Assembly (NCBI RefSeq): GCF_026130545.1
Contig: NZ_JAMOIM010000027.1
Coordinates: forward strand, 1-63,363
Source of the DNA: Lichenifustis flavocetrariae
Lineage (GTDB): Bacteria > Pseudomonadota > Alphaproteobacteria > Rhizobiales > Beijerinckiaceae
DNA: 63,363 nt
Direction of reading: 5' to 3'
In this document: one piece after another, positions 3,583 through 45,195 of the stretch
Layout of the letters: every line of letters begins with the position of its first letter
Numbering within the stretch: position 1 is the stretch's first letter
Position numbers and translations under genes: made by a program
The notes under the pieces: generated by a model
What the model saw: the letters and a program-made list of their open reading frames with translations, nothing else
Database searches by the model: none
What the model was told of the DNA's origin: nothing

Positions 3583-3630
3583 TTGCCAAACCGTATTCTC
3601 ATTGTATACCGTTAGCATGCCGAATTATAC
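3583..3630 (+). promoter_or_regulatory. candidate promoter and GntR operator of the hydroxyproline-type operon
   Basis: A possible -35 (TTGCCA, 3583-3588) and -10 (TATACC, 3605-3610) are 16 bases apart. The -10 overlaps ATTGTATACC (3601-3610), whose GTATAC core resembles FCD-GntR operators. A second, weaker AATTATAC element sits at 3623-3630. The arrangement would allow repression by steric block. Inference from sequence only. Confidence 0.4.
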
Positions 3631-3643
3631 GAGGGGTTGTTCG

Positions 3644-4474: not shown

Positions 4475-4508
4475 GCGACACGTCGATAACGACACGGCGC
4501 GACGGCGA

Positions 4509-5198: not shown

Positions 5199-5241
5199 CC
5201 TTAGCCTCGACAAGGGCGCGCGAACGCCCGGGACCACACGC

Positions 5242-18342: not shown

Positions 18343-19078
18343 GATAGGCCTCCTGCACCTGTCGATTGCCCCGGATTGCCTCGGGCGTCCCGTGGGCCAG
18401 GACGGCCCCTCGGGCCATGACATAGATTTCATCCGAAACCGACATGATCAGCTTCATGTCGTGCTCGATCAGCACGATCGCGAGATCGGGCGACCGGAGC
18501 GCCTGGATGTGGGCTTTCAGTTCGTCGGTTTCGCCGTGATTGAGGCCGGCCGCGGGCTCGTCGAGCAGGATCGCACGCGGACGGGCCACGATGGCGCGCG
18601 CCAATTCGACGAGCTTCTGCTGGCCATAGGCCAGGCTGCCGGCGTGCCGTTCGCCCAGATGGGCAATCCCGAGCCTTTGCAGCACCGTCTCGCAGTCCGA
18701 TCGTGCTTCCGCTTCGCTGCTGCCCGGTGACAAGCCAAAGGCCTGCATGATCAGGCGCGGCAGCGAGCGGGGCACCAACGCGACCTCGAGGTTTTGCAGC
18801 ACGGTCAGGCCGTCGAAAAGACGGATGTTCTGGTAGGTGCGGCTTAGCCCCGCGCGCGCGATCTTGTATTTCGGCAGATCCTGGAGTGCGACATCGTCGA
18901 GCAGAATGCGCCCGCTCGTGGTTCGGAACGAACCCGCCGCCATGTTGACGAGCGTCGACTTGCCGGCGCCGTTCGGGCCAATCACCGCGGTGATCACGCC
19001 GGGCCTGATCGTCAGCGAGACGTCGTCGATGGCCGTGTTGGCGCCGAAGCGTTTGGTGACATGGTCGAAGACCAGCAT
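18239..19078 (-). CDS. livG: branched-chain-type amino-acid ABC transporter ATPase LivG, 279 aa
   Basis: Walker A 'GPNGAGKST', 'GLSRTYQNIRLF' Q-loop region typical of LivG, signature-like 'LAYGQQKLVELARAI', Walker B 'AILLDEPAAGL'. Normal LivG proteins end near 'VQEAYLG'. Here the frame runs about 32 residues further as an Arg/Gly-rich tail overlapping the start of livF. The extension probably reflects loss of the original stop and may be tolerated. Start at ATG 19078, two bases from the livM stop. Confidence 0.88.
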   Translation of the reverse strand: MLVFDHVTKRFGANTAIDDVSLTIRPGVITAVIGPNGAGKSTLVNMAAGSFRTTSGRILLDDVALQDLPKYKIARAGLSRTYQNIRLFDGLTVLQNLEVALVPRSLPRLIMQAFGLSPGSSEAEARSDCETVLQRLGIAHLGERHAGSLAYGQQKLVELARAIVARPRAILLDEPAAGLNHGETDELKAHIQALRSPDLAIVLIEHDMKLIMSVSDEIYVMARGAVLAHGTPEAIRGNRQVQEAYLGQPGAMGTIEAAARGRRNRIRVRAGEGLAWGQP

Positions 19079-19080
19079 GA

Positions 19081-20049
19081 TCAGGCCCTCGTCATTCGGC
19101 GAACAAGCCAACTCGGCCCGTATTCGCGACGGATGAGGCCCATGGGCCGGGCCAAGATGATCAGCACCAACGCGATCCCGTAGAGCAATTGGCGGTAGTC
19201 CGCATAGGCGCGCAGCAGTTCGGGCATCACCACGAGCAATGCCGCGCCGAGGATGACGCCGAACGGGTTGCCGAGCCCGCCCACGACGACGACCAGGACA
19301 ATCGAGAGCGACTCCCAGAAGGTGAAGCTCTCCGGGCTGACGAACTGCTGCATGGAAGCGAACACCACGCCGCCGATGCCGCCGATCGTGGCGCTGGTCG
19401 CGAAGGCGACGAGCTTCACCCCTGTCGTGTCGATGCCGCAGCCCCGCGCCGCGTCCTGGTCCTCGCGCACGGCCGCAAGCGCGATACCGAGGGAGCTTTC
19501 CTGAAGACGCCACACGAAAAGAAAGGTGAGCACCACGAGGACGACCAGGAGGTAGAGATAGTCGAGCGGGGTCGACAGGTGCCAGCCGAAAATGACGGCC
19601 TCGTCGATGCGTGCGATCCCCTGCGGCCCGTTGGTCAGCCCGTCGAGGTTGTTCATCAGCACCCGGATGATCTCGCCGAAGCCGAGCGTGACGATGGCCA
19701 GGTAATCGCCGCGGAGCCGCAGCACCGGGATGCCGAGCAGCACCCCCGCCAGCGCCGCGAGGCCCGCCCCGATCAGCAGGACGAGAAGGAACGGGAGGTG
19801 CAGATCGAACTGCGGCGAGGCCAGCAGCGCATAGGTGTAGGCACCAATGGCGTAGAACGCGACATAGCCGAGATCGAGCAGGCCCGCATAGCCAACCACG
19901 ATGTTGAGCCCCAGGCCGAGCATCGCGTAGAGCAACACGAGATCGAGAATCCGCAGCGGATAGGCGGGTAGGAATTGACCGAATACGATCACCGCGATCG
20001 GCATCAAGGCCATCGGGATCACGGCGCGGAGCTCCGGACGGCGCGTCAT
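19081..20049 (-). CDS. livM: branched-chain-type amino-acid ABC transporter permease LivM, 322 aa
   Basis: Membrane permease with the family blocks 'MLGLGLNIVVGYAGLLDLGYVAFYAIGAY', given here only in outline, then 'GDYLAIVTLGFGEIIRV' and 'GGLGNPFGVILGA'. ATG 20049 is used; GTG 20073 and ATG 20106 in the same frame would overlap livH by a few to about 40 bases, and none has a strong ribosome site. Together with LivH it forms the pore for the substrate bound by the protein at 21021-22130. Confidence 0.88.
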   Translation of the reverse strand: MTRRPELRAVIPMALMPIAVIVFGQFLPAYPLRILDLVLLYAMLGLGLNIVVGYAGLLDLGYVAFYAIGAYTYALLASPQFDLHLPFLLVLLIGAGLAALAGVLLGIPVLRLRGDYLAIVTLGFGEIIRVLMNNLDGLTNGPQGIARIDEAVIFGWHLSTPLDYLYLLVVLVVLTFLFVWRLQESSLGIALAAVREDQDAARGCGIDTTGVKLVAFATSATIGGIGGVVFASMQQFVSPESFTFWESLSIVLVVVVGGLGNPFGVILGAALLVVMPELLRAYADYRQLLYGIALVLIILARPMGLIRREYGPSWLVRRMTRA

Positions 20050-20065
20050 CGGGGTGATGGCGGCG

Positions 20066-21010
20066 TCAGAAGTCACGCTTGTAGACCATGGTTTCCTCGC
20101 TGACATGCTCGCCGAGCAGGCCGGCGGGGCGGAACAGCAGGATGATCACCAGAACCGAGAAGGCGAAGATGTCGCGATATTCCGTGCCGATCAGCCCATG
20201 CGTGAGGGCCGGCATCCAGGCGGTCGCGAAGGTCTCGATGAAGCCGAGCAGCAGGCCGCCCAGCACGGCGCCCGGGATCGAGCCGATGCCGCCCAGGATC
20301 GCGGCCGTGAAGGCCTTCATGCCGATGATGAAGCCCATCGAGAAGGTCGCGACCCCGTAGTAGGAGGCGTAGAGGATACCGGCCACGGCACCGAGCCCCG
20401 GACCGACGAAGAAGATGAGGGCGATCGGCAGGTTCGGGTTGATGCCGACGAGCGACGCCGTCTCGGCGCTCTCGGCCACGGCGCGGATCTTCACACCCAG
20501 GCTTGTGCGGCTGACCAGCAACTCCAGCCCGACCATCAACACCAGGGCGACCGCCAGGATTGTGATCTGCTTGTAGGTCACGACCGCGCCTGCGATCTGG
20601 AAAACGCCGCGCGGCAGGAAGGACGGATAGATGAGTGGGCGGCGACCGCCCACCAGCATCACGACGTTCTGGATCACCACCGCCATGCCCAGGGCCGACA
20701 GCATCGGTGCGAGCCGGGACGTTCCCCGCAACGGCCGGTAGGCCACGGTTTCGACCGCGACCCCGAGAAAGCCGATCGCCAGAAAGGTCGCGAACCCGGC
20801 CGCGAGAGCGACCCCAGGATGGCCCGCCACGCCTCCCAGCAAGCTCGCGGCGAAGACCGCCACGAACGCGCCTGCGGTGAACATCTCGCTGTGGGCGAAA
20901 TTGATCAGTCGGAGGACTCCGTAGACCATCGTGTAGCCGAGAGCGATCAGCGCGTAGATGGCGCCGACCGTCAGGGCATTGATGGCCTGCTGAAGGAGAA
21001 GCGTGGCCAT
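20066..21010 (-). CDS. livH: branched-chain-type amino-acid ABC transporter permease LivH, 314 aa
   Basis: Complete permease with 'LLLQQAINALTVGAIYALI' at the N-terminus, 'GYTMVYGVLRLINFAHSE' (the LivH hallmark) and 'GMKAFTAAILGGIGSIPGA' in the C-terminal half. Starts ten bases after the binding-protein gene stops. Confidence 0.92.
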   Translation of the reverse strand: MATLLLQQAINALTVGAIYALIALGYTMVYGVLRLINFAHSEMFTAGAFVAVFAASLLGGVAGHPGVALAAGFATFLAIGFLGVAVETVAYRPLRGTSRLAPMLSALGMAVVIQNVVMLVGGRRPLIYPSFLPRGVFQIAGAVVTYKQITILAVALVLMVGLELLVSRTSLGVKIRAVAESAETASLVGINPNLPIALIFFVGPGLGAVAGILYASYYGVATFSMGFIIGMKAFTAAILGGIGSIPGAVLGGLLLGFIETFATAWMPALTHGLIGTEYRDIFAFSVLVIILLFRPAGLLGEHVSEETMVYKRDF

Positions 21011-21020
21011 GGACTGCGGA

Positions 21021-22130
21021 CTACTTCAGCAGCTCGAATTTGCCGTTCTTCACCGTGTAAAGGAAGATGAACGGCTTTGTCAGTTCACCGTTGGGCTGGA
21101 ATGAGACGTGGCCCACGATGCTGTCGAAGTCGCTCTTGGCGATGGCCGGCACGATGGTGGCGCGTGTGATCGACGCGCCTGCGGCCTTCATCCCGTTGAT
21201 GACGACCTGGGCTTCCATGTAGCCATAGGCCGAATAAGGACCCGGGTCCTCCTTGAAGGCGGCCTTGTAGGTCTTGGCGAACTCCTGCAGTTGCGGAGAG
21301 GAATCGTAGGGCGGTGCCTGGAACGAGACGATGGCGCCCTCGGCGTTCTCGGGTCCGGCGCCCTGGATGAAGTCGGGTGTGAAGGCGGAGTCGGCCCCGA
21401 ACACCTTTGCGGTGATGCCGAATTCCCGCGCCTGTTTCACGAACAGTCCGATCGCCGGCATGATGCCACCGAAGTAGATGACGTCCGGGTTCTCATTCTT
21501 GATGGTGGTGAGCAGCGCGCTGAAGTCGACGTCGGTCTGTGCGACGCCGCTGAAGGACGTGACCGTGCCGCCGCCCTTCTTGAAGACATCCTGGAACACT
21601 TCCGCAACGCCTTGTCCGAACGCCTGCTTGTCATGCACGATGGCGGCCTTCTTGGCGCCGAGCGTCTTCAAAGCATATTCGGCCGGTGCCGCGCCCTGAG
21701 AAAGATCGTTCGCGATCGGCCGAAACAGGTTGGGATAACCGGCTTTCGTGACCTTCGGGTTCGACGAATTCGTCACCTGGGGCATGCCGCAGCGATGATA
21801 GACATCGGACGATGGAATGGTCACGCCGCTGTTGAAATTGGCAATCACGGCCAACATCGAGGTGTTGTCGCATTGCTTCTGTGCCACGAGCGTCCCCTGT
21901 TTGGGATCGCCGCCGTCGTCTTCGCGCTGGAAGACGAGTTTCTGTCCTCCGACCCCACCTGCGTCATTGGCCTGGCGGATCGCCAGTTCCATCCCGTTCA
22001 TCCAGGTCGTGCCGAACAGCGACTCCGAGTTTGTGAGCGGCCCGGCGCTGCCGATGACGATGTCGGCGCGGGCCGCGCTCGACAACCCCACGAGAAGCGC
22101 CGCCGTAGAAATCAAAGTCACTGTACGCAT
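21021..22130 (-). CDS. branched-chain-type ABC transporter substrate-binding protein (LivK/LivJ family), 369 aa
   Basis: Type I periplasmic binding protein with a Sec signal peptide ('LISTAALLVGLSSAARA', cleavage near residue 23) and family features such as 'IGSAGPLTNSESLFGTTW', 'FQREDDGGDPKQGTLVAQK' and 'YGYMEAQVVINGMKAAG'. ATG 22130 has GGAGAGG nine bases upstream; an in-frame TTG at 22148 is less likely. First gene of the leftward transporter operon. The divergent enzyme operon implies the ligand is an amino acid or betaine-like compound rather than leucine itself; this is inference. Confidence 0.9.
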   Translation of the reverse strand: MRTVTLISTAALLVGLSSAARADIVIGSAGPLTNSESLFGTTWMNGMELAIRQANDAGGVGGQKLVFQREDDGGDPKQGTLVAQKQCDNTSMLAVIANFNSGVTIPSSDVYHRCGMPQVTNSSNPKVTKAGYPNLFRPIANDLSQGAAPAEYALKTLGAKKAAIVHDKQAFGQGVAEVFQDVFKKGGGTVTSFSGVAQTDVDFSALLTTIKNENPDVIYFGGIMPAIGLFVKQAREFGITAKVFGADSAFTPDFIQGAGPENAEGAIVSFQAPPYDSSPQLQEFAKTYKAAFKEDPGPYSAYGYMEAQVVINGMKAAGASITRATIVPAIAKSDFDSIVGHVSFQPNGELTKPFIFLYTVKNGKFELLK

Positions 22131-22185
22131 CTTGATTGTCCTCTCCAACGAAACAGGGTGAGCGCCTCGGCCGAGCTTGGCGGGT

Positions 22186-22872
22186 TCAGGCGATATCCTT
22201 CAGGGGTTTTTCGGCAGCAGCGGCCAACGACGCCGAGAGGTTGCGCGACACGCGTGCGATGTGGCGGCGTAGCACGTCGACGCCACGCTCGACGTCGCGC
22301 AGCCGAGCATAGGCAAGCATCGCGTGGTGATCTGAAAGTTCGCTCTCGACGTCCCGCATGACGAAGAGCTGCAGGTTGACGTAACGAGCCGCGTTGTCAT
22401 GGACGGAACGCAGCAGCTTCAGCGCGACGCGATTGCCGCTTGGGAGGTAGAGCGCCTCGTGGAACCGCCAGTTCAGGTCGCCCCAATTGTCGACGGCGCC
22501 GGTCCGGGACGCCTCGTCGATCAGTGCTTCGGCCCTGTCGAGATCGGCATCTGTGGCGCGTGGGATCGCGGCCTCGAACAGCCAGGTCTCGAGTTGCATC
22601 CGGATCCCGAACAGATCTTCGAGCTCGCGCGGCGAGAGCGACGAGACCACCGTCCCTTTGTGCAGCTCAGAGGTAACCAGCCCCTCGGCTTCGAGATGCC
22701 GGATCGCCTCTCGCAGCGGAATGCGCGACACACCCAACTCTGAGGCCAACCGCTCCTGGCGAAGCATCGTCCCCTCGGCGAGTTGGCCATTGAGGATGCG
22801 ACGCCGCAATTCAGTGGTGATCTGCTCGGTCAATGATGTTCGCCCGGGCTTCAGGGGGACGTCCTTCTTCAT
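22186..22872 (-). CDS. GntR-family transcriptional regulator (FCD subfamily), 228 aa
   Basis: Winged helix ('RLASELGVSRIPLREAIRHL', about residues 42-61) plus an FCD domain (about 85-215) with the ligand/metal residues in 'RFHEALYLPSGN' and 'DHHAMLAYAR'. It is the leftmost product of the intergenic region that also drives the rightward ten-gene enzyme operon. Two inverted copies of a 9-bp word flank this region, one overlapping the regulator's own start. It is the obvious local regulator of both the transporter and the enzyme operon. Confidence 0.9.
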   Translation of the reverse strand: MKKDVPLKPGRTSLTEQITTELRRRILNGQLAEGTMLRQERLASELGVSRIPLREAIRHLEAEGLVTSELHKGTVVSSLSPRELEDLFGIRMQLETWLFEAAIPRATDADLDRAEALIDEASRTGAVDNWGDLNWRFHEALYLPSGNRVALKLLRSVHDNAARYVNLQLFVMRDVESELSDHHAMLAYARLRDVERGVDVLRRHIARVSRNLSASLAAAAEKPLKDIA

Positions 22873-22999
22873 ATTGGATACGATATCGAAGCAAACACGG
22901 CGATCAACTCCTTAATTTGCGCTGATCCCCAAAATATCGCCTAAAAAATAGGCTTTTAATTGAGATCGTACGGTTCTAGCCTGAAACTGTATCCAATTT
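22871..22999. promoter_or_regulatory. divergent control region with paired GntR half-sites
   Basis: ATTGGATAC (22873-22881), followed by the palindrome CGATATCG (22881-22888), lies at the regulator's start. The exact inverted copy GTATCCAAT (22989-22997) lies just upstream of the cupin gene at 23012. The two are 107 bp apart, enough for looping or for separate control of each promoter. The region between is A+T-rich, as expected for promoters. Confidence 0.55.
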
Positions 23000-23011
23000 A
23001 CGGAGCGAGTC

Positions 23012-23566
23012 TTGAGCCAGTCGTCAGGTGTGCTGCCGGTCGATGCAACTACAGGAGCACCTGCCGACGGCCGGGGCGACGTTCTGGTGGTGCAGCCCGG
23101 GACCGCTGAAAGCTATTGGCAGCCAGTGCCGGCGAACGGCCACATCGAGGTGATCTTCGCTCCGCATCGCGTGGCCATGGATCATCCGATCGGGCTCGGC
23201 ACCCAGACGGTGGCGGTGGGCGGCCATGTTCGGGAACATGCGCACGACCGGAACGAAGAAGTGGTGTTGATGATCAGCGGCAAGGGCCGCGCCGTAATTG
23301 ACGGCGAGAGCCATCCCATGGTGCCGGGCTCCGCCTTCTTCATCGGCAAGAATCGCCGACACACTTTCATCAATGAGGGCGACACGGAGATCACCTGGAT
23401 GTGGTTGATCGTTCCGAACGGCCTCGAAGACTTCTTCCGCCTGATCGGCCGCCCGCGTCAGGACGGCGAGCCCGATCCGGAGCCATTCGCCCGTCCGGCC
23501 AACGTTCTCGAAATCGAGCGGCAGACCGTTTTCGCAGTCGTGCCACCCGATCAGCGCCAACCCTGA
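23012..23566 (+). CDS. cupin-domain protein, 184 aa
   Basis: Single cupin domain in the second half: 'HAHDRNEEVVLMISGKG' (two His and a Glu for metal) and 'FFIGKNRRHTFINEGD' (last His). The start is TTG 23012 with GGAGCGAG upstream; the first ~35 residues are not conserved-looking. First gene of the rightward operon, and distinct from the cupin at 17125. Possible roles are an isomerase/dioxygenase step on the imported compound or ligand sensing. Confidence 0.75.
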   Translation: MSQSSGVLPVDATTGAPADGRGDVLVVQPGTAESYWQPVPANGHIEVIFAPHRVAMDHPIGLGTQTVAVGGHVREHAHDRNEEVVLMISGKGRAVIDGESHPMVPGSAFFIGKNRRHTFINEGDTEITWMWLIVPNGLEDFFRLIGRPRQDGEPDPEPFARPANVLEIERQTVFAVVPPDQRQP

Positions 23567-23575
23567 GTGCCCGAC

Positions 23576-24328
23576 ATGCGTCTCAAGAACAAGACCGCCG
23601 TGATCACGGGCGCGGCAGCCGGCATTGGCAAGGCCACGGCCGAACTTTTCGTCCGCGAAGGCGCCAAAGTTGTGATCGCGGATCGCGACGCCGATGCGGC
23701 CGCTGCCGTGGCGCGGCAACTCGGCGACGCCGCCTCCGCGTTCGTGGTGGACGTCAGCAACGGACCGCAGGTCAGACGCCTGATGGATGACACAGTGGCG
23801 CGGCTCGGCCGTCTCGACGTGCTCGTGAACAACGCCGGCTACGGGATCCGCGGCAATGTCGTGACCACCGCGGAGGAGGACTGGGACGCCCTGATGGACG
23901 TGAACCTCAAGGGCGTCTTCCTGTGCTCGAAATACGCGGTTCCGCACATGATTGCGCAGGGCGGCGGGGCGATCGTCAACACCTCGTCCACGATCGCCAG
24001 TGTCGGCATCCCCGACCGTGTCGCCTATGTCGCGTCGAAGGGCGGTGTCGCGGCGCTCACGCGAGCCATGGCGCTCGATCACGCGGGAGACAACATCCGG
24101 GTCAACAGCGTGGCGCCCGGCGTGATCTGGTCCAGCTACTACGAGAAGATGGTGGAGACCCACGAGGATCCCGAGACCTTCCTGGCCAAGCTCAAGGCCA
24201 GGGCGCCGACCAATCGGTGGGGCGAACCTCACGAGATCGCAACGGCGATTCTGTTCCTCGCCTCTGACGAGGCCTCCTTCGCAACCGGCAGTTCGATGAC
24301 GATCGACGGCGGCTACACGGCCTGGTGA
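23576..24328 (+). CDS. short-chain dehydrogenase/reductase (FabG-like), 250 aa
   Basis: Classical SDR: cofactor loop 'TGAAAGIGKATAELF', 'NNAGYG', catalytic Tyr/Lys in 'YVASK' (Y151, K155) with the upstream Ser of 'VNTSSTIAS', and C-terminal 'GSSMTIDGGYTAW'. An aspartate in 'VIADRDAD' after beta-2 favours NAD over NADP. ATG 23576 is used; a GTG at 23567 directly abuts the cupin stop. It probably oxidises a hydroxyl in the pathway. Confidence 0.88.
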   Translation: MRLKNKTAVITGAAAGIGKATAELFVREGAKVVIADRDADAAAAVARQLGDAASAFVVDVSNGPQVRRLMDDTVARLGRLDVLVNNAGYGIRGNVVTTAEEDWDALMDVNLKGVFLCSKYAVPHMIAQGGGAIVNTSSTIASVGIPDRVAYVASKGGVAALTRAMALDHAGDNIRVNSVAPGVIWSSYYEKMVETHEDPETFLAKLKARAPTNRWGEPHEIATAILFLASDEASFATGSSMTIDGGYTAW

Positions 24329-24331
24329 CGG

Positions 24332-25126
24332 ATGACCGCAGGAACGCCCATCGGCATCATCGGCCACGGTGCGATCGGACGCGATCTCGCAGAGCGTCTG
24401 TTGGGAAGCGGGTACCACGTGACGGTTTTGCTGCGCGCGGGGTCGACGTCGCTTGAGGCTGTACCGGCTTCGGTCGGGACCGTGCACACCATTGATGCGT
24501 TGATCGGCACGCGCCCCGCTCTCGTGGTCGAGGCGGCCGGCCAGTCCGCGCTTCAAACCCTCGCCCCCGCTCTGCTGTCGGCCGGCATCGACGTTGTGGC
24601 GGCGTCCACGGGCGCGCTCGGCGATCCCGTCGTGTTCGACCGGCTGGCGACAGCGGCCCGGGAGGGCGGCAGTCGCCTCGTTATCCCGGCCGGCGCCCTC
24701 GGCGGGCTCGATTATCTCGCGGCGCTTCGCGGCACTGCCGAGGCCAGCGTGCGCTACACCTCGCGCAAGCCGCCTGCAGCCTGGCGGGCCGAACTCGTAG
24801 CGGCCGGTCATGACCCGGCGGCTCTCAGCGGGGAGATCGTGCTCTTCGAGGGCACAGCCGCGGATGCGGCGCGGCTCTACCCGCGCAATCTCAACGCCGG
24901 CCTCACCGTGGCGCTGGCCGCAGCCCCCACCCCCGTCACGGTTCGGGTCATCGCCGATCCCGCGGTCGCGCTCAACACCCACGAGATCGAGGCCGAGAGC
25001 GATCTCGGGACGGCTTCGATGCGCTTCGCCAACCGCCCGTCACCGGCCAATCCAAAGACCTCGGCCCTGACCGCCGCGAGCCTTGCGGCGGCGGTGCGTC
25101 GCCTCCTCGAGCCGGTCGTCCTGTGA
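24332..25126 (+). CDS. L-aspartate-dehydrogenase-like NAD(P)-dependent amino-acid dehydrogenase, 264 aa
   Basis: Strong family pattern of aspartate dehydrogenase (NadX/DUF108): N-terminal Rossmann loop 'IGIIGHGAIGRDLAE', 'VVEAAGQSAL', 'IPAGALGGLDYLAAL', 'YTSRKPPAAW', 'ARLYPRNLNAGLTVALA' and the catalytic His of 'NTHEIEAES' (about H217), ending in 'NPKTSALTAASLAA'. In NAD biosynthesis this enzyme makes iminoaspartate for NadA, but nadA/nadC are absent here. It sits in a catabolic operon with a B12 mutase-like protein, so a 3-substituted aspartate (for example methylaspartate) is an attractive alternative substrate. Family sure, substrate speculative. Confidence 0.85.
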   Translation: MTAGTPIGIIGHGAIGRDLAERLLGSGYHVTVLLRAGSTSLEAVPASVGTVHTIDALIGTRPALVVEAAGQSALQTLAPALLSAGIDVVAASTGALGDPVVFDRLATAAREGGSRLVIPAGALGGLDYLAALRGTAEASVRYTSRKPPAAWRAELVAAGHDPAALSGEIVLFEGTAADAARLYPRNLNAGLTVALAAAPTPVTVRVIADPAVALNTHEIEAESDLGTASMRFANRPSPANPKTSALTAASLAAAVRRLLEPVVL

Positions 25127-26358
25127 GCGCCACGCCGCACAGCGTGGTGATCGGGGCCGGCATCATCGGCCTGAGTTGCGCCCGCGCCCTGCTGCGCGAA
25201 GGCCATGCGGTCACGGTGATTGACAGGGATCCGGCGGGCGACAAGGCCTCGTTCGGCAATGCCGGGGGGCTCGGCATCACCGAGATCCTGCCGGCGTCCT
25301 CGCCGGGCCTGATCTGGCAAATCCCGAAATGGCTTGCCGACCCGCTCGGCCCGCTGTCGCTCCGCCCGGCCCATCTGCCGAGCCTCATGCCATGGCTCGT
25401 CCGCTTTCTACGCACCGGTACGAAAGCCGAGGTCGCGAGAATTGCCTCGGTCATGGCCGGTCTGCTCGCTCCCGTCTACGACGACATGCTGCCATTGCTC
25501 GCCGAACTCGGGCTGTCCCGGGATCTGCACCGCGTCGGTGCGCTCTGGATTTACGACACCGAGGCGGGCTTCGAGCGCGATGCCCCGGCCCATGCCCTGC
25601 GACGTCGGCACGGCATCGAGGTGGAAACGATCAGCGCCGCGGAGGCCCGCCGGCTGGAGCCGGCACTCGCGCCCACGAGCGCCCGAGCCGTCGTCACGCC
25701 GCAATGGTCCCACCTGTCCGATCCCAAGCGCATTGTCGACCGGCTGCGCGAAGCCCTCATGGCCGGAGGCGTCGTGATGCGTATGCTCGACGCGACGGCG
25801 ATCGACGGCCAGGCGGTCGTCACAGCCCAGGGCGAGCGCATCGCCTTCGACCATTTGATCGTGGCGACGGGCGCCTGGTCGGGCCGGATCGCGCGCCTGA
25901 TCGGCGATCCCGTTCTGATCGAGAGCGAGCGGGGCTACAATGCCACGCTCCCTTCACCGGGCGTCACCTTGTCGCGCGAGGTCATCTTCGCGCAGCGCCA
26001 ATTCGTGGCGACCCCGCTTGAGATCGGCCTTCGTATCGGCGGTGCGGCGGAGTTCGCGGGGCTCGATGCCAAGCCCGACTACCGGCGAAGCGATGCCCTG
26101 GTGACACTCGCCCGCCGTTATCTGCCCGGTCTCGACACCCGTGGCGCAGTCCGCTGGATGGGAAACCGCCCGACGACACCCGACAGCCTGCCCGTCATCG
26201 GTCGCTCGCCGCGCCGTCGTGACGTCGTCTACGCATTCGGGCACGGCCATGTGGGACTGACCCTCGGCCCGACCACAGGTCGCCTTGTGGCTGACATCGT
26301 CACCGGACGGACCGCGCCCGTCGACCTTTCTCCGTTTTCCATCGCACGGTTCGCCTGA
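25123..26358 (+). CDS. FAD-dependent D-amino-acid dehydrogenase (DadA-like), 411 aa
   Basis: DAO-fold flavoprotein: dinucleotide site 'VVIGAGIIGLSCARALLRE', 'KASFGNAGGLGI' just after it (FAD-binding, typical DadA), and C-terminal 'RWMGNRPTTPDSLPVIGRS' followed by 'GHGHVGLTLGPTTGRLVAD'. The GTG start overlaps the aspartate-dehydrogenase-like stop by four bases (GTGA), indicating coupling. With epimerases on its downstream side it would oxidise the D-isomer of the substrate and pass electrons to quinone. Confidence 0.88.
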   Translation: MSATPHSVVIGAGIIGLSCARALLREGHAVTVIDRDPAGDKASFGNAGGLGITEILPASSPGLIWQIPKWLADPLGPLSLRPAHLPSLMPWLVRFLRTGTKAEVARIASVMAGLLAPVYDDMLPLLAELGLSRDLHRVGALWIYDTEAGFERDAPAHALRRRHGIEVETISAAEARRLEPALAPTSARAVVTPQWSHLSDPKRIVDRLREALMAGGVVMRMLDATAIDGQAVVTAQGERIAFDHLIVATGAWSGRIARLIGDPVLIESERGYNATLPSPGVTLSREVIFAQRQFVATPLEIGLRIGGAAEFAGLDAKPDYRRSDALVTLARRYLPGLDTRGAVRWMGNRPTTPDSLPVIGRSPRRRDVVYAFGHGHVGLTLGPTTGRLVADIVTGRTAPVDLSPFSIARFA

Positions 26359-26360
26359 TC

Positions 26361-27374
26361 ATGCCGCTTCCCACCTCTCCCCACACCTTCCTTTGCGTCG
26401 ATGCCCACACCTGCGGCAACCCGGTCCGCGTGGTGGCCGGTGGCGCGCCGCTGATCGCCGCACGCGACATGGCGGAACGACGGCAGATCTTCCTGGCCCA
26501 GCACGACTGGGTCCGCCATGCCCTGATGTTCGAGCCGCGCGGCCACGACGTGATGTCCGGTTCGATCCTGTATCCGCCGTCGCGCCCCGACTGCGACCTT
26601 GGCGTGCTTTTCATCGAGGTCAGCGGCTGCCTCCCCATGTGCGGCCACGGCACCATCGGGACCGTGACGGTCGCGCTCGAAGAGGGTTTCGTGACCCCGA
26701 AGATCGAGGGGCGTCTCGCGCTGGAGGTGCCGGCCGGTCGTGTCGAGGTGACGTATGAACGCAACGGCCGTTTCGTCGACGAGGTACGGCTCTACAACAT
26801 TCCGAGCTACCTTCACGCGACCGAGGTCCCGGTCACGGTTCCTGGATTCGGCGAACTTGTGGTCGATGTCTCCTATGGCGGGAATTTCTACGCCATCGTC
26901 GAGCCGCAGAAGAATTGGGCCGGGCTCGACAGCATGAGCCCCGACGAAATCCTGAAGTGGAGCCCGCTGGTGCGCACCGCTGTCCAGGAGGCGGTCGCCC
27001 CGGTTCATCCGGAGGACAGCCGCATCGCCGGCGTCAGCCACGTCATGTGGGCCGACAAGCCCAAGCATCGCGAGGCCCACGCCCGCAATGCCGTGTTCTA
27101 TGGCGCCAAGGGGATCGACCGTTCGCCCTGCGGCACGGGATCGTCGTCTCGGATGGCGCAGCGCGTCGCCAAGGGCCAGCTCGCGGTCGGCGAGGACTTC
27201 GTGCACGAGAGCATCATCGGCACGCTGTTCCATTGCCGGGTGGAGGGTGCGGCGACGGTCGCGGGCCGTCCCGCCATTCTGCCGAGCATCGGCGGCTGGG
27301 CCCGGGTCATTGGGCACAATAGTATCCTGGTCGATCCACGCGATCCGCTCGCCTTTGGCTTCCAGCTTGCCTGA
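26361..27374 (+). CDS. proline racemase family, C/C type: probable 4-hydroxyproline 2-epimerase or related racemase, 337 aa
   Basis: Both catalytic cysteines are present: C94 in 'MCGHGTIG' and C257 in 'SPCGTGSSSRMA'. The two-Cys pair is the signature of true racemases/epimerases; trans-3-hydroxyproline dehydratases carry Thr at the second site. Length is normal. Next to a DadA-like oxidase it would convert an L- to a D-imino or amino acid. It could also supply the epimerase missing from the hydroxyproline-type cassette at 3.6-9.8 kb. Starts two bases after the flavoprotein stop. Confidence 0.85.
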   Translation: MPLPTSPHTFLCVDAHTCGNPVRVVAGGAPLIAARDMAERRQIFLAQHDWVRHALMFEPRGHDVMSGSILYPPSRPDCDLGVLFIEVSGCLPMCGHGTIGTVTVALEEGFVTPKIEGRLALEVPAGRVEVTYERNGRFVDEVRLYNIPSYLHATEVPVTVPGFGELVVDVSYGGNFYAIVEPQKNWAGLDSMSPDEILKWSPLVRTAVQEAVAPVHPEDSRIAGVSHVMWADKPKHREAHARNAVFYGAKGIDRSPCGTGSSSRMAQRVAKGQLAVGEDFVHESIIGTLFHCRVEGAATVAGRPAILPSIGGWARVIGHNSILVDPRDPLAFGFQLA

Positions 27375-27384
27375 GCCGGCCGCC

Positions 27385-29184
27385 ATGCCGGACCGTGCGG
27401 CGCTCGTTCCGCCGAACCTACGCCCAGGTGCGGAGCTGGTGGCGGAGGGTCGGGCCATGGCGCGCGATTGGCAGGTGGGCCGGACGCCTTTTATCGACCG
27501 GGCCGGGGTCGGCTGCGAGGCGGACTACAAGCGGGAAGCAGCGCTCGCAGGCCGCATCATGCAGCACGCCCATATCGGGTTCCGCAGCGTCGATCGCACG
27601 ATCGGCGCTATCGCCGAGGTGTTCGACACCTGCGAGGCGCGGGGCGTCACCGTCGACCGCTTCGGCATCACGCTCGATTGGTCGATGGGCTACCCCGCCG
27701 CTGACCGCAAACAGCGCTCCCGGGGCACCGGCATCGTGCTCGGCGGACCGGAAGATTTCGCGCGGATCACGGGCGCAGCACCTTCGGCCGCCCATTTCGG
27801 CGACTTCATGCTGGGTCTTCCCGGCGCCCTCGACAACACGAAACATGCGATCGCGGCCGGCGCCACCGCGATCGGCAATCTCGGGCAGTATTTCACCTTC
27901 CGGCTGCCGGACTGGGACGACGATGTGGCCACCACCGAAGCGACCGTGCGGGCGCTCGGCCTCATCGCGGCGCAGCCCGTCGAGATCCTGGTCCATTCCA
28001 ATCTCGACGACGGCTTCGCGGGGCTGTTCGCCGACATGAGTGCCACGCTCGGCATGGTGCTGATCGAGAAGCACATCGTCGAGACGCTCGTCGGCGCCCG
28101 AACAAGTCACTGCTTCGGCCATCACTTCACGGCGCCCGCCCTGCGGCTCGCCTTCCATCGGGCCCTCGCCAAGATCACGGACGGGCCGGGCACCATGATC
28201 TTCGGCAACACGGTGAGCTACCGCTCGACGGCGGGCGGCAATTTCGCAAGCCTCGCAAGCTACCTCCAGGCCGATATCTGGGCCTTGCGGCGTCACAACA
28301 CGGGTCACGCCATCAACCCGGTTCCGGTCTCGGAAAACGAGCGCATTCCCGACATCGACGAGATCATCGAGGCGCAGACCTTCGCGGCCCGCCTGGTCGA
28401 ACATGCGTCGGACTCGTTCGGCCTGATCGGGTTCGACAACGTCGATCGGACCGCCGATATCCTGATCGAGGGCGGTCGCGGCTTCGCCGCACGGGTGTTG
28501 GATGGTCTCCGCGAAGCCGGGGTCGACACGGCCGATCCGGCCGCTCTCTTGATCGCGCTGCGCCGGACCGGTCCCAGGCGCCTCGAAGCGCTCTACGGTC
28601 CCGGCGTTCAGGATCCCGAAGCCTGGGGAGGCCGTCGCGCCACCATACCGGCCGAATGGGTCGAAGATCTGCGCCGCTCGGCCGCGTCCTGGGTGAGCCG
28701 GACGCCTCTGCCGGTCCGTGAACGGCTGCGCACCAGCGGCCTGCGGGTCTGCGTCGGCGCGAGCGACGTTCATGAGCACGGCAAGATGTTGATCGATCAA
28801 GTCGTGGCCGATCTTGGCCTTCAAGCGATCGATGGCGGAACCTCGGTCGATCCCGCCGAACTCGCCGGCCGCGCCATTCGGGGAGGTGCCGATGTCGTGG
28901 CGGTCAGCACCTATAACGGCATCGCCCTGCGCTACGCCCGCGAGGTGCGGGACGCGCTCGCCGCAACCGGCACGGCCCTGCCGCTCTGCATCGGCGGCCG
29001 CCTGAATCAGGTGCCGGACGACAGCAATACAGGGCTCCCGGTCGATGTCACGAGCGACATTGCGGGGCTCGGCGTCACGCCCTGCGTGACACCCGAAGCG
29101 CTGATTGCCCTTCTCGACGGGCTCGCCGAGCGGCGGGACCCCGCTCGCCCGGTCCATTCCCCCGATTCTCGAACGCACTCCTGA
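27385..29184 (+). CDS. single-chain cobalamin-dependent mutase-like protein, 599 aa
   Basis: The C-terminal ~140 residues form a Rossmann-like B12-binding domain: the base-off/His-on motif DxHxxG is exact (D461, H463, G466 in 'SDVHEHGKMLID'), followed by 'VSTYNG' and 'CIGGRLNQ'. The N-terminal ~440 residues look like the barrel subunit of glutamate mutase (GlmE): 'GLPGALDNTKHAIAAG' followed by 'GNLGQYFTF', then 'DIDEIIEAQTFAARLV' and 'ARVLDGLREAG'. The similarity is moderate by eye. In glutamate mutase barrel and B12 parts are separate proteins; here they are joined. ATG 27385 lies ten bases after the preceding stop. Expected chemistry: adenosylcobalamin-dependent carbon-skeleton rearrangement of an amino acid. 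Substrate unknown; methionine-synthase-like chemistry is less likely. Confidence 0.7.
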   Translation: MPDRAALVPPNLRPGAELVAEGRAMARDWQVGRTPFIDRAGVGCEADYKREAALAGRIMQHAHIGFRSVDRTIGAIAEVFDTCEARGVTVDRFGITLDWSMGYPAADRKQRSRGTGIVLGGPEDFARITGAAPSAAHFGDFMLGLPGALDNTKHAIAAGATAIGNLGQYFTFRLPDWDDDVATTEATVRALGLIAAQPVEILVHSNLDDGFAGLFADMSATLGMVLIEKHIVETLVGARTSHCFGHHFTAPALRLAFHRALAKITDGPGTMIFGNTVSYRSTAGGNFASLASYLQADIWALRRHNTGHAINPVPVSENERIPDIDEIIEAQTFAARLVEHASDSFGLIGFDNVDRTADILIEGGRGFAARVLDGLREAGVDTADPAALLIALRRTGPRRLEALYGPGVQDPEAWGGRRATIPAEWVEDLRRSAASWVSRTPLPVRERLRTSGLRVCVGASDVHEHGKMLIDQVVADLGLQAIDGGTSVDPAELAGRAIRGGADVVAVSTYNGIALRYAREVRDALAATGTALPLCIGGRLNQVPDDSNTGLPVDVTSDIAGLGVTPCVTPEALIALLDGLAERRDPARPVHSPDSRTHS

Positions 29185-29193
29185 GAGGCTTCC

Positions 29194-30228
29194 ATGCGCT
29201 TTTCCCGAATGATCACCGTTGTGGGCGCCCATGCCTGCGGCGAGTTGAACGAGGTGATTACCGGTGGCGTCCGAGACGTGCCGGGCAAGACCATGTTCGA
29301 GAAGATGCAATATGTGGAGAAGCACGCAGACTATCTGCGCCAGTTCCTCCTCAACGAGCCGCGCGGCAAGGTCAACCAGTGCGTCAACCTGGTGCTGCCG
29401 CCGACCGACCCCAGAGCCGACGCAGGCTTCGTGATCATCGAGGCCGACTATTACGTGCCGATGTCGGGCACCAACACCATCTGCACCGTCACGGCGCTGC
29501 TGGAGACCGGCATGATCCCCATGCAGGAGCCCATCACCAAGCTAACCCTTGAAGCGCCCGCCGGCCTCGTGCCCGTCACGGCCGAATGCCGGGACGGCAA
29601 ATGCGTCAGCGTGACCTTCGACAACGTGCCGGCCTTTGTCTTCACGCTCGACCACGAGGTCGACGTACCGGGTCTGGGACGCATCAAGGTCGATGTCGCC
29701 TACGGTGGCATGATCTACTGCCTGGTTGATGCGGAAAGCCTCGGCTTCGCCATCGACAATTCCGAGGCCGCCAAGCTCGTGGAGGTGGGAGAGCGCATCA
29801 AACGCGCGGCGGCGGTGCAGATCCCTTGCGTGCATCCGGACAACCCGGAGATCCACACGATCAACCAGACACTCTTCGCAAGCCCCTTACAGACCACGCC
29901 GGACGGCAAGCGGTCGCGCAATACCGTGATCGTCTCGCCCGGCCGTCACGATCGATCGCCCTGCGGCACCGGTACGTCCGCCCGTTTGGCCGTGCTCCAT
30001 GCACGGGGGCAGCTGGCCGAGGGCGAGACCTTCGTGCACGAGAGCCTGATCGGCACGGAATTCATCGGCCGGATCCGCGGTACGACGGAAGTCGGCGGCA
30101 AGCCCGCGATCCTGCCCACCATCACGGGCAAAGGCTGGATCACCGCCTTCCACCAATATGTCCTCGACCCGAGCGACCCGTTCCCGCTCGGCTTCCGGGT
30201 CGGCGATACTTGGCCGGCCTCGGCCTGA
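29194..30228 (+). CDS. proline racemase family, S/C type, 344 aa
   Basis: Same fold as the gene at 26361 but with Ser at the first catalytic site (S91 in 'VPMSGTNTICTVTAL'); the second Cys is kept (C257 in 'SPCGTGTSARLA'). The Cys/Cys pair is needed for classical racemisation, so this protein may do a one-base reaction such as dehydration or elimination, or epimerise one direction only. GAGAGG precedes the ATG. A second family member in the same operon suggests two different stereochemical or elimination steps. It is not a recent duplicate, as the sequences differ widely. Confidence 0.82.
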   Translation: MRFSRMITVVGAHACGELNEVITGGVRDVPGKTMFEKMQYVEKHADYLRQFLLNEPRGKVNQCVNLVLPPTDPRADAGFVIIEADYYVPMSGTNTICTVTALLETGMIPMQEPITKLTLEAPAGLVPVTAECRDGKCVSVTFDNVPAFVFTLDHEVDVPGLGRIKVDVAYGGMIYCLVDAESLGFAIDNSEAAKLVEVGERIKRAAAVQIPCVHPDNPEIHTINQTLFASPLQTTPDGKRSRNTVIVSPGRHDRSPCGTGTSARLAVLHARGQLAEGETFVHESLIGTEFIGRIRGTTEVGGKPAILPTITGKGWITAFHQYVLDPSDPFPLGFRVGDTWPASA

Positions 30229-30244
30229 CGCGAGGACCCTCGCG

Positions 30245-31042
30245 ATGACCATCGTCAAGGCGGCAGACGGCTGCGAACTCTTCTACGAGCGGACGGGCTC
30301 CGGCCCGCCAGTCGTGCTGATCCCAGGGCTCGGCGGCGACGGCCGCTTCTGGGCCGGGGTCGTGGCCCGTCTCGCCGGCCGGTTCGACTTGATCGTCGTC
30401 GATCATCGTGGCGCCGGGCGAAGCGCGCGGCCGCCGGGGCCCTACAGCATCGGCGGCATCGCGCGGGACGTTCTGGCGGTGCTCGACGCCGAGGGCATCC
30501 ATTCGGCGCATCTGGTCGGGCACTCGACGGGCGGCGCCATCGTGCAGACCCTGGCCCTCGACGCGCCCGCGCGCAGCCGCTCGCTCGTGATCAGCGGCAG
30601 TTGGGATCGCTCCGACGCGCGCTTCAGGGCTGCCTTCGAAGCCCGGGCCGCGCTGCTCGACGCAGGCCTGATCGCTCCCTATCAGCAGCTCACCCATGTG
30701 TTCGGTTACGATCCCGCGTGGCTCGACGCCCATGAGGTCGAACTCCAGAAGGCCGTCGACAATGCCGGGGTAGCGCTCGCGCCTCTCGCGGTGACGGCGG
30801 CACGCGTCCGCATGCTGCTCGATTTCGACCGTTCGCAGGAACTCCACCGCATCACGCAACCGACGTTGATCATCGGCGCTCGCGACGATGCCCTCGTACC
30901 CATTCACCACGCGCACAGGCTGACGGCCTTGATCTCTCATGCTGCGTTCAGCGAGTTTCAGGGCGCTCACTTCCATCCGCGCACCGACCCCGTACCCTTT
31001 GCCGATCGCGTCGCGGCTTTCCTTGATGAGACGGGACGCTAG
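30245..31042 (+). CDS. alpha/beta-hydrolase, 265 aa
   Basis: Full alpha/beta-hydrolase: oxyanion 'LIPGLGGDGRFW', nucleophile elbow 'GHSTGG' (S94), acid in 'GARDDALVP' and the final His in 'GAHFHP'. Without signal peptide, cytoplasmic. The frame is open upstream, but ATG 30245 gives the family N-terminus. RutD- or 3-oxoadipate-enol-lactonase-like by pattern, so hydrolysis of an ester, lactone or amide in the pathway is expected. Confidence 0.85.
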   Translation: MTIVKAADGCELFYERTGSGPPVVLIPGLGGDGRFWAGVVARLAGRFDLIVVDHRGAGRSARPPGPYSIGGIARDVLAVLDAEGIHSAHLVGHSTGGAIVQTLALDAPARSRSLVISGSWDRSDARFRAAFEARAALLDAGLIAPYQQLTHVFGYDPAWLDAHEVELQKAVDNAGVALAPLAVTAARVRMLLDFDRSQELHRITQPTLIIGARDDALVPIHHAHRLTALISHAAFSEFQGAHFHPRTDPVPFADRVAAFLDETGR

Positions 31043-31103
31043 CGGTGGTCAGGAATCGCCGCCCGCCCGAGGCGCATCCCGAAGAGAGTGAAAGGACACG
31101 ATC

Positions 31104-31418
31104 ATGATCGTTGAGGAACGCGATTATGCGGTCAAACCCGGCAAGCTCGCGACCTTCGTGGAGACCTACCGGGACCACGGCCTGCAGCTGCAGCTCGAGT
31201 ACCTCGGCACCTTTCACGGCTATTTCACTAGCGAGATCGGCGAGCTCAATCACGTCGTCGCCTGGTGGTCGTTCGACAGCCTCGACGATCGACAGGCCAG
31301 GCGTGCCCGGATGCTGGCCGATCCGCGCTGGCAGGCCTACCTCGCCATGGTGGGCGATCTGCTGCAAGTGCAGTCGACCCGCATTCTGTCGCCTGTTTCT
31401 TTTTCTCCCTTGCGGTGA
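31104..31418 (+). CDS. NIPSNAP-family protein, 104 aa
   Basis: Small ferredoxin-like-fold protein with the NIPSNAP pattern: 'EERDYAVKPGKLATFVETY', 'LGTFHGYFTSEIGELNHVV', 'WWSFDSLDDR' and 'ARRARMLADPRW'. The family is frequent in catabolic operons, but its biochemical role is poorly known; dimeric alpha-beta-barrel proteins of this kind may bind or isomerise small metabolites. AAAGGA precedes the start. Confidence 0.85.
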   Translation: MIVEERDYAVKPGKLATFVETYRDHGLQLQLEYLGTFHGYFTSEIGELNHVVAWWSFDSLDDRQARRARMLADPRWQAYLAMVGDLLQVQSTRILSPVSFSPLR

Positions 31419-31427
31419 GGCCATCCG

Positions 31428-32366
31428 ATGCTGATCGAACGAACCGCCATTGTCGGAGGTGGTATCATCGGCCGTTCCTGGGCCATCGTTTTCGCCCGTG
31501 CCGGCCTACCCGTCGTGATCTACGACCAACTGCCTGAAACAAGGGCGTCGATGCGCGAGCGGCTGGCCGAGGCACTCGCGCAATCGGCCGCGCTCGTCGG
31601 CGACGCAGCGGCGCAAACTGCCGTTCTGGATCGCATCAGCGTGGCCGACAACCTCGCCCAGGCCGTGGCGGATGCCGATTTCGTCCACGAATGCATCGAT
31701 GAAAAACTGGACAGCAAGGTTGCCATCTTTCGCGAGCTCGATCGACTGGCGAAACCTTCCTCCATCCTGGCCACCACCACGTCGAGTTTCCCGGTCTCGA
31801 CCTTCGCGGCAGAGCTTCCGAGCCGCAACCGCTGCATCGTGGTCCACCCTGCCACGCCGCCGCACCTTCTGCCGGTGACCGAGATCTGCCCCGCACCCTT
31901 CACCGATCAAGCGGTGACCGACGCCGCGTTTGTGTTCATGGAGCGGTGCGGCCAAGTGCCCGTTCTGATCCGCTTCGAGCAATCGAGTTTCGTGCTCAAC
32001 CGGCTACAGGCCGCTCTCGTTGTCGAAATGCTGCGCTGCCTGAACAGCGGCATCATTTCCCCCGGCGACATCGACAAGATCATCAGCCAGGGGTTCGGCC
32101 TGCGCTGGGCCTTCCTCGGGCCGTTCGAGGGCGTCGACCTGAATGCCGCCGGCGGGATCCGGGAATATCTCGAGCGCTTCGGCTTCATCTTCGACGACAT
32201 GGCCCGGCAGAACGGGCATCTGGGTGCGGTGGTGACCCCGGAGGCGATCGCTATGCTTGACGCCTATGCGCGCGCGCAGCTTCCTCTCGACTCGATCGGC
32301 GACCGCACAGCTTGGCGGGACCGCGCAATCACATCCCTTCGCGCGCTCAAGAACGCCAACGCCTGA
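31428..32366 (+). CDS. 3-hydroxyacyl-CoA-dehydrogenase-like NAD-dependent dehydrogenase, 312 aa
   Basis: N-terminal NAD-binding Rossmann fold with G10-x-G12-x-x-G15 ('VGGGIIGRSWAIVFARAG'), catalytic His in 'VVHPATPPHLLPV', and a helical C-terminal domain ('VLNRLQAALVVEMLRCL', 'GFGLRWAFLGPFEGVDLNA'). The family includes L-carnitine dehydrogenase, lambda-crystallin/gulonate dehydrogenase and 3-hydroxybutyryl-CoA dehydrogenase. At this length and with these motifs a free-acid beta-hydroxy acid is as likely as a CoA ester. Last gene of the rightward operon. Confidence 0.85.
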   Translation: MLIERTAIVGGGIIGRSWAIVFARAGLPVVIYDQLPETRASMRERLAEALAQSAALVGDAAAQTAVLDRISVADNLAQAVADADFVHECIDEKLDSKVAIFRELDRLAKPSSILATTTSSFPVSTFAAELPSRNRCIVVHPATPPHLLPVTEICPAPFTDQAVTDAAFVFMERCGQVPVLIRFEQSSFVLNRLQAALVVEMLRCLNSGIISPGDIDKIISQGFGLRWAFLGPFEGVDLNAAGGIREYLERFGFIFDDMARQNGHLGAVVTPEAIAMLDAYARAQLPLDSIGDRTAWRDRAITSLRALKNANA

Positions 32367-45051: not shown

Positions 45052-45195
45052 GTCGTGGCTCCTTTTTGAGGTCGGGCGCCCTGACGGGCGGTTAGAACGA
45101 TGTGGATCCTGCATCGAGGCGTGCGTAGTGCCGCTTGGTCGCCCTCGGAGAACCCCGAAGCGCGGGCCGCTGCCCGGCCTGAATGGCGCGCCCCG

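Follow-up and report, generated by a model that had tools for sequence, protein, structure and literature searches.

The described systems closest to the locus reported here are the mutases that use adenosylcobalamin (AdoCbl) and the bacterial degradation of hydroxyproline. In its known pathway, D-ornithine 4,5-aminomutase (OAM) is followed by a dehydrogenase (PMC4413051). The 4-hydroxyproline pathway is reported to comprise an epimerase (4HypE), a D-amino-acid oxidase (DAAO), DHDPS and an aldehyde dehydrogenase (ALDH); hydroxyproline epimerases are reported there with Cys/Cys and Ser/Cys catalytic pairs, and the dehydratase with Ser/Thr (PMC4113996). We studied a 63,363-nt window of Lichenifustis flavocetrariae DNA (contig NZ_JAMOIM010000027.1; coordinates refer to the forward strand of that window), in which a leftward LIV-type transporter and GntR regulator diverge from a tightly packed rightward enzyme operon that includes a B12-binding protein.

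We read this locus as a catabolic regulon under GntR control that serves an imported amino or imino acid resembling hydroxyproline; its AdoCbl mutase would act on a free amino acid, beside a nicotinamide-dependent dehydrogenase. We give this reading as a whole a probability of about 0.45. The regulon is apparently undescribed. An earlier sequence-only reading of this DNA knew no pathway of such composition, and keyword searching of 5.39 million open-access papers likewise listed none, judged by titles and abstract beginnings, which is weak evidence of absence as subscription literature lay mostly outside the search.

The locus resembles each known system in part. With glutamate (methylaspartate) mutase, GlmE plus GlmS, the B12 protein shares the barrel fold, which is its best match, the DxHxxG cobalamin domain and, by eye, an E-x3-[IV]-P motif, but it is a single chain, its barrel lacks sequence similarity to that enzyme, and no GlmL-type protein is among the family matches of the operon proteins. 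As in the pathways of OAM and lysine 5,6-aminomutase (LAM), an AdoCbl mutase fold stands beside a nicotinamide dehydrogenase for amines; unlike those enzymes, the protein has no invariant lysine in its cobalamin domain and no match to PF09043. Methylmalonyl-CoA mutase (MCM) is also one chain with a barrel and then a C-terminal cobalamin domain, but its barrel is not matched in sequence and gives somewhat lower TM-scores by query, and Pfam and NCBIfam scans found no CoA-ligase family among the operon proteins. The bacterial trans-4-hydroxyproline pathway has in common with the locus epimerase-type proteins and a DadA-like oxidase, whereas the window's operon has no DHDPS or ALDH match in the same scans and adds the B12 gene and genes for an aspartate-dehydrogenase-like (AspDH-like) protein, a cupin, an SDR, a hydrolase and a NIPSNAP protein (PMC4113996).

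A B12 protein with a mutase-like predicted fold

The B12 gene lies at 27385..29184 (+). Its open reading frame (ORF) opens at 27088, within the preceding gene, and the start was taken as the ATG at 27385, ten bases past the racemase-family stop. The barrel covers about residues 1-390 and the cobalamin domain about residues 450-585. At E values up to 1, Pfam matched only PF02310 (C-terminal B12-binding). A PDB profile search matched the cobalamin-domain part of cobalamin proteins, MCM matches beginning at position 396 or later; the remaining matches (E 0.029 and above, e.g. adrenodoxins) look like chance.

The full-length predicted model (pLDDT 91) has the architecture of the AdoCbl mutase superfamily, a barrel plus a cobalamin-binding Rossmann domain, and Foldseek ranked AdoCbl mutases first (MCM, glutamate mutase, OAM, LAM). 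Because the cobalamin domain could drive this match, the barrel was modelled separately (pLDDT 93.9). Its best match was glutamate mutase E (E 2e-7), ranks 1-15 were all AdoCbl mutases, in agreement with the sequence-only reading that had called the protein mutase-like, and the first other barrel came at rank 16 (E 4.8e-4). TM-scores by query were 0.56-0.61 in the eight glutamate, lysine and ornithine mutase rows listed and 0.48-0.56 in the CoA mutase rows.

Conserved residues were read from 20 sequences. The protein alignment (A1) combines the window's sequence with those of 19 loci, out of 29 others in an order sample; it omits seven whose match contains a stop codon (L007, L008, L009, L012, L020, L021 and L032) and three partial ones (L028, L029 and L033). 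In the DxHxxG base-off/His-on motif, D461 and H463 are invariant and G466 nearly so. E317 and P322 of the E-x3-[IV]-P motif are invariant in 20/20, and the motif is, as judged by eye, common to two GlmE proteins. We take the glutamate of this motif to be Glu330 of glutamate mutase. An interaction with the adenosyl group is reported both for Glu330 in glutamate mutase and for Glu370 in MCM (PMC4413051).

Membership in known mutase sequence families was considered and rejected: in glutamate mutase for want of a PF06368 match at E 1, with TIGR01501 and HHalign far too low (scores below) and a single chain; and in the lysine/ornithine aminomutases on PF09043, HHalign and the lysine mentioned above. 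For MCM, no family match over the barrel was found. Within the AdoCbl mutase fold predicted for it, the B12 protein represents a sequence family for which no relative was recognised, with 2-methyleneglutarate mutase outside the comparison. It is probably an AdoCbl mutase, judging from the model, and we infer that it uses AdoCbl. Among nine plasmid matches, the four full-length ones carrying a gene are annotated 'cobalamin-dependent protein' (three) or 'hypothetical protein' (one).

Gene content of the divergent unit

The enzyme operon (+) begins with the cupin (23012..23566; PF07883), the SDR oxidoreductase (23567..24328; PF13561; NF004791 361.3 against a cut-off of 312), the AspDH-like gene (24332..25126) and a DadA-like FAD D-amino-acid dehydrogenase (25123..26358; PF01266), the last two sharing a GTGA overlap. 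Then come a Cys/Cys member of the proline racemase superfamily (26361..27374), the B12 gene, a Ser/Cys member (29194..30228), the alpha/beta-hydrolase (30245..31042; PF00561; its ORF opens at 30158 and the ATG at 30245 is the assumed start), the NIPSNAP protein (31104..31418; PF07978) and a 3HCDH/lambda-crystallin-type dehydrogenase (31428..32366; PF02737). With the starts assumed, successive gaps from the cupin to the last gene are 0, 3, -4, 2, 10, 9, 16, 61 and 9 bp.

On the other strand (-) lie the GntR-family regulator with an FCD domain (22186..22872; PF00392 and PF07729), a LivJ/K-like binding protein (21021..22148; PF13458), LivH-like (20066..21010) and LivM-like (19081..20106) permeases, both PF02653, and LivG-like (18239..19513; PF00005 and PF12399) and LivF-like (17599..18432; PF00005) ABC ATPases. 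For the two ATPases the coordinates are ORF extents; the true start of the former lies within, about 19085 by eye, and that of the latter probably later. Every gene named by the sequence-only reading is open at its position with an agreeing Pfam and NCBIfam assignment, and the order, families and tight spacing that it described were borne out; the LIV transporter, which it had placed inside 22186-32366, lies beyond that interval at 17599-22148. In the window, no known RNA was matched at Rfam gathering thresholds, and no tRNA was found.

The AspDH-like protein has the Asp_DH_C domain (PF01958, 91 bits) and passes the subfamily cut-off (NF009828, 186.4 against 177), with the equivalog models listed below their cut-offs, and its alignments with 2dc1 and 1j5p cover most of the protein; by sequence it would belong to the L-aspartate dehydrogenase family. 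The last gene scores above the cut-off of NF004783 (PRK06129, named 3-hydroxyacyl-CoA dehydrogenase; 359.2 against 347), whereas among solved chains lambda-crystallins come closest (3ado, E 5e-53) and acyl-CoA dehydrogenases follow (3hdh, E 2.5e-23). Its role as a CoA-dependent beta-oxidation enzyme is doubted, the model name speaking for it and the structure ranking against it. The nearest solved relatives of the LivJ/K-like protein (the 3ip5 series) are amino-acid, mostly leucine-type, binding proteins, a likeness from which the substrate is not deduced.

Two other parts of the window drew attention. A second amino-acid-type operon (3602-9025, +) encodes a family-3 binding protein, a permease, a DHDPS-family gene and a 966-aa protein that joins 2Fe-2S, Pyr_redox, BFD and DAO domains and resembles a one-chain amino-acid/sarcosine-type dehydrogenase. 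A class II fumarase gene lies at 43588-45114 (-; TIGR00979 684.9 against 664.75).

Conservation of the cluster in relatives

With alignment A1, a collection in which each of 84,980 species is represented by one genome was scanned via two short peptide patterns. The 275 pattern matches gave 210 encoding a relative, and the best 80 were used; counts lean towards near relatives. Of the 80 loci, 63 are at least 20 kb and some are short contigs. A gene was counted as present at no less than 35-45% identity across 60% of the query (tblastn; self-chosen thresholds), the cluster genes having been called first with a home-made ORF caller. An order search gave a further set of loci, which partly shares contigs with the species collection (e.g. 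L039 and L127), so that the two are not independent.

Fifteen of the 80 loci, chosen for both racemase-family genes, make up type I; many are from one genus, Ancylobacter, and the other hosts are Methylocapsa, Bosea sp. 117, two Xanthobacteraceae and Brucella/Ochrobactrum species. All 15 also keep the GntR, cupin, SDR, AspDH-like, DadA-like, hydrolase, NIPSNAP, LivJ and LivH genes, at 49-94% identity to the window's proteins. A DapA-like gene is present in 13/15 and missing from the window's operon, and the window's last dehydrogenase recurs only in Methylocapsa, the nearest relative (1/15).

Type II comprises 23 loci chosen for E1-beta and AspDH. They hold an acetoin-dehydrogenase-like set (E1-alpha 23/23, E2 22/23), a KstD-like flavoprotein (22/23), the cupin (22), the hydrolase (23), the NIPSNAP gene (21), the window-type SDR (16) and a second SDR (21), a 3HCDH-type dehydrogenase (21), a 285-aa protein without a family (21), a P5C-reductase-like (P5CR-like) gene (20), another GntR (20) and LivJ (20). 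Common to types I and II are the B12, AspDH-like, cupin, SDR, hydrolase and NIPSNAP genes. The two racemase-family genes were considered as part of this shared core and rejected, being absent from 23/23 type-II loci; by gene content, they and DadA are a module of the window's cluster type. The neighbourhood survey proposed by the sequence-only reading, here run over the 80 loci, finds the genes co-occurring.

The commonest partners of the B12 gene are P5CR-like (53/80) and AspDH-like (46/80); 27 loci have both and 8 neither. The cupin occurs in 46, the hydrolase in 40 and the NIPSNAP gene in 39. A P5CR-like gene lies on the same strand at most 0.7 kb from the B12 gene in 11 of 15 order-search loci (L039-L053). 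Among the relatives read, the three least similar (32-33% identity, L188-L190) have it adjacent in one case and not in the other two, one of which lies on a 7.6-kb contig. AspDH, B12 and KstD-like genes occur together in three loci (L053, L191 and L192).

Four further observations were made. The 285-aa protein (L137, 18276-19133, and homologues) occurs in 30/80 loci and has no Pfam or NCBIfam match. In Acetobacter garciniae (L072, 9842-12660), the B12 gene and a DapA-like gene share 4 bases, with no further cluster gene recognised near. In a deep-sea alphaproteobacterium (L113, 5627-17902), an AspDH-like gene lies upstream of the B12 gene and an Fe-S protein/EtfA/EtfB/OYE-family set downstream, a set that presumably recalls N-methyl-amino-acid demethylases. 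A phytanoyl-CoA-dioxygenase-family gene (L109, 8115-9032) adjoins the P5CR-like/B12 pair at three loci (L109, L120 and L128); the cluster to which it belongs also appears in L081 and L130.

In a tree of B12 proteins longer than 520 aa, with hand-assigned type labels, a single clade (support 1.0) unites type I with type III (Bosea) and one Acetobacter sequence, type I alone not being a clade, and the 26 type-II sequences lie within a clade of 39. The family was found in 28/397 order-sample genomes at E 1e-10 and in 4/398 phylum-sample genomes at E 1e-30, the window's own included in both, the latter all in its class; the named relatives among the best 80 are Alphaproteobacteria by name, one being labelled only Proteobacteria. 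It was not found in the 19 genomes of the window's own family listed in the order sample, an absence that fits horizontal spread.

Promoter sites and co-regulation

In 16/16 type-I loci, the window included, the divergent promoter lies between two operator-like sites of opposite orientation. The relatives' sites are mostly near-perfect palindromes (ATTGRATACRATATTCAAT, consensus by eye), which the window's two unstranded sites, at 22873..22891 and, on the enzyme-operon side, at 22981..22998, fit imperfectly. TTGRATA and its complement flank the promoter in 16/16 loci, and the longer 8-mers TTGRATAC and GTATYCAA are both found in 15/16, the exception being Methylocapsa with one base different in site 1. 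None of 500 single-base shuffles per locus contained both 8-mers; the whole window has one of them twice and the other once. GntR would presumably bind at these two sites.

Because gene content is kept in 15/15 type-I relatives and the operator-like pair in 16/16, the gene set stands above chance, the neighbourhood part of which was gauged on eight comparison loci only, with no genome-wide baseline. In that small control, 0/8 13.5-kb loci taken elsewhere in window-type genomes had an AspDH match. The enzyme, GntR and LIV genes very probably form one catabolic regulon. The claims of the sequence-only reading that the operon genes act together and that the unit is catabolic are supported, as it looks like one co-regulated unit.

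Racemase-family genes and the hydroxyproline link

Both racemase-superfamily proteins match PF05544. The Cys/Cys protein, at 563.8, is above the NF010578 (4-hydroxyproline epimerase) cut-off of 376 and appears 4-hydroxyproline-epimerase-like; the Ser/Cys protein, with an SGTN motif, is below it and may be an epimerase or a dehydratase. The nearest solved chain of the latter, 4k8l, has Thr at the second position, where the window protein has Cys. For the DadA-like protein, all 25 NCBIfam matches among those listed fall below their cut-offs.

Genomes of 11 of the 15 type-I relatives were searched for Cys/Cys copies. All have the cluster copy, 81-88% identical to the window's, and 10/11 have a second copy at 58-60%. 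Six second-copy loci were read: a DadA-like gene is present in 6/6, a DapA-like gene in 4/6 and a Ser/Cys-type gene in 3/6; one of them also holds a mandelate-racemase-family gene, named by eye. Identities between the module and these hydroxyproline-type clusters are 38-42% for DadA, 43-45% for DapA and 46-48% for Ser/Cys, so by sequence the window's module is paralogous to them but diverged. In the window's own genome, the other racemase-family matches are the operon's Ser/Cys gene (37%) and one gene elsewhere (36%).

At two loci, in Phyllobacterium zundukense (L136) and a Mesorhizobium metagenome-assembled genome (L096), the B12 gene independently lies beside fuller clusters of hydroxyproline type, with racemase-family, DAAO-type, DapA-type and aldehyde dehydrogenase genes. 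The Mesorhizobium genome also encodes GlmS, a GlmL-family protein and GlmE (L096, 17828-21147, on into L200/L201), then a methylaspartate ammonia-lyase and a fumarase-type hydratase by eye; together they would give a rhizobium a glutamate pathway of the methylaspartate type.

A candidate for the missing DapA-like orthologue, the DHDPS-family gene at 5155-6135 further upstream in the window, was rejected, being 35% identical to the type-I DapA-like gene, though it could overlap in function. A hydroxyproline-like substrate is our tentative choice, at somewhat less than even odds. This estimate and that for the reading as a whole were lowered, and the estimate for an ordinary hydroxyproline operon was raised, because the Ser/Cys protein scores like a dehydratase and the paralogue loci lack an aldehyde dehydrogenase.

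Proposed pathway and alternatives

The LIV proteins would import the substrate, which the Cys/Cys enzyme would invert at C2, the Ser/Cys protein acting as a second epimerase or a dehydratase. The DadA-like flavoprotein would oxidise the D-form to an imine, and in the 13 relatives that have it the DapA-like enzyme would follow. The single-chain mutase would take the central step: substrate binding would break the Co-C bond of AdoCbl, and the deoxyadenosyl radical would shift a carbon fragment of the free amino acid, as in glutamate mutase. Mutase substrate or product would be oxidised at the amine carbon by a nicotinamide dehydrogenase, AspDH-like here and P5CR-like in many other loci, and the hydrolase, the SDR and the last dehydrogenase would finish the carbon skeleton. 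Steps and order alike are deduced from family membership, and this particular order is doubtful. The pairing of mutase and dehydrogenase is proposed because of the OAM precedent (PMC4413051) and would parallel, by analogy, D-ornithine aminomutase followed by 2,4-diaminopentanoate dehydrogenase. The beta-oxidation-like steps of the sequence-only reading found no support, with no CoA-ligase match in the operon and an ambiguous last enzyme.

Several points weigh against this proposal. The structures matched by the barrel are remote (rmsd 4.3-8.1 and identity 9-14% across ranks 1-15), no sequence relation of the barrel to known mutases was found in the PDB profile search or by HHalign against one GlmE and one lysine aminomutase, and the mutase assignment is based on predicted fold and motifs. 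2-Methyleneglutarate mutase, of which no sequence came up in the searches, is a single-chain AdoCbl mutase on a free acid and may be related to the B12 protein. DadA, racemase-family (ProR) and DapA genes are in 0/23 type-II loci; because this module is absent there, it may have been added locally, or the B12 protein may act in further pathways besides this one. Had a DapA-like enzyme already set the nitrogen free, little work would be left for AspDH. For the Ser/Cys protein the closest models are those of hydroxyproline dehydratases, yet it falls below cut-off (NCBIfam T3LHyp dehydratase, 436 against 550). The window's operon has neither DapA-like nor aldehyde dehydrogenase genes, so that the full 4HypE, DAAO, DHDPS and ALDH set was not found, and an aldehyde dehydrogenase match occurs in none of eight paralogue loci read, because of which calling those clusters hydroxyproline catabolic is an analogy.

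An ordinary, partly redundant hydroxyproline operon, in which the racemase-family enzymes and DadA degrade trans-4- or trans-3-hydroxyproline with the B12 and AspDH-like proteins as accessories, would account for the Cys/Cys score, for catalytic pairs of the kinds reported for hydroxyproline epimerases (PMC4113996) and for the closeness of the Ser/Cys protein to trans-3-hydroxyproline dehydratase models. It is nevertheless unlikely: nearly all type-I genomes searched already hold the second Cys/Cys gene, with DadA-like neighbours in all six such loci read and DapA-like ones in four, the B12 core occurs without this module in all type-II loci, and neither a DapA-like nor an aldehyde dehydrogenase gene is present in the window's operon. 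Distinctly unlikely is a second glutamate mutase that converts glutamate or a 4-substituted glutamate to 3-methylaspartate, which the AspDH-like enzyme would deaminate to methyl-oxaloacetate. The best barrel match and the AspDH family scores and alignments favour it, but Met_asp_mut_E is not matched in sequence (HHalign probability 0.4%), the S-domain model TIGR01501 gives 20.8 against a cut-off of 135.8, and in L096 the Glm genes lie about 6 kb from the B12 gene, which suggests a different job.

That the protein is an aminomutase of the ornithine/lysine kind, dependent on both pyridoxal phosphate (PLP) and B12, is improbable. The barrels of OAM and LAM belong to the top fold matches (TM-score by query 0.56-0.61), and a P5CR-like or AspDH-like partner would mirror the dehydrogenase after OAM (PMC4413051); PF09043, however, is not matched, the HHalign probability is 0.1%, and the sole invariant lysine in 20 sequences, K49, lies outside the cobalamin domain. 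Lys629 of OAM is, we assume, in its cobalamin-binding domain. This is the residue through which OAM is reported to hold PLP (PMC4256349). A corrinoid methyl carrier or B12-based sensor in place of a radical mutase would explain the additional sequence matches of the cobalamin domain to methionine synthase and corrinoid proteins and the presence of methionine synthases lower in the full-length fold list, but it is very improbable, since the barrel, with the cobalamin domain removed, still has AdoCbl mutases at its first 15 ranks and no operon protein matched a methyltransferase family in Pfam or NCBIfam scans.

The regulon built around an AdoCbl mutase is our preferred reading. A broader speculation, to which we give rather low odds, is that the B12 protein founds a new AdoCbl mutase family whose members rearrange the carbon skeleton of a cyclic imino acid, either intact or after ring opening, with a P5CR-like enzyme as ancestral partner, and that several alphaproteobacterial lineages built different catabolic regulons around the pair.

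Implications

AdoCbl mutases acting on free amino acids are few, those considered here being glutamate mutase and the ornithine and lysine aminomutases. If our reading is true, soil and marine Alphaproteobacteria would possess another single-chain family, one that recurs beside a dehydrogenase partner, adding a reaction and pointing to an unknown nutrient, and a use of B12 would have been overlooked by present annotation. As transporter, regulator and promoter sites are conserved, the substrate should be directly testable.

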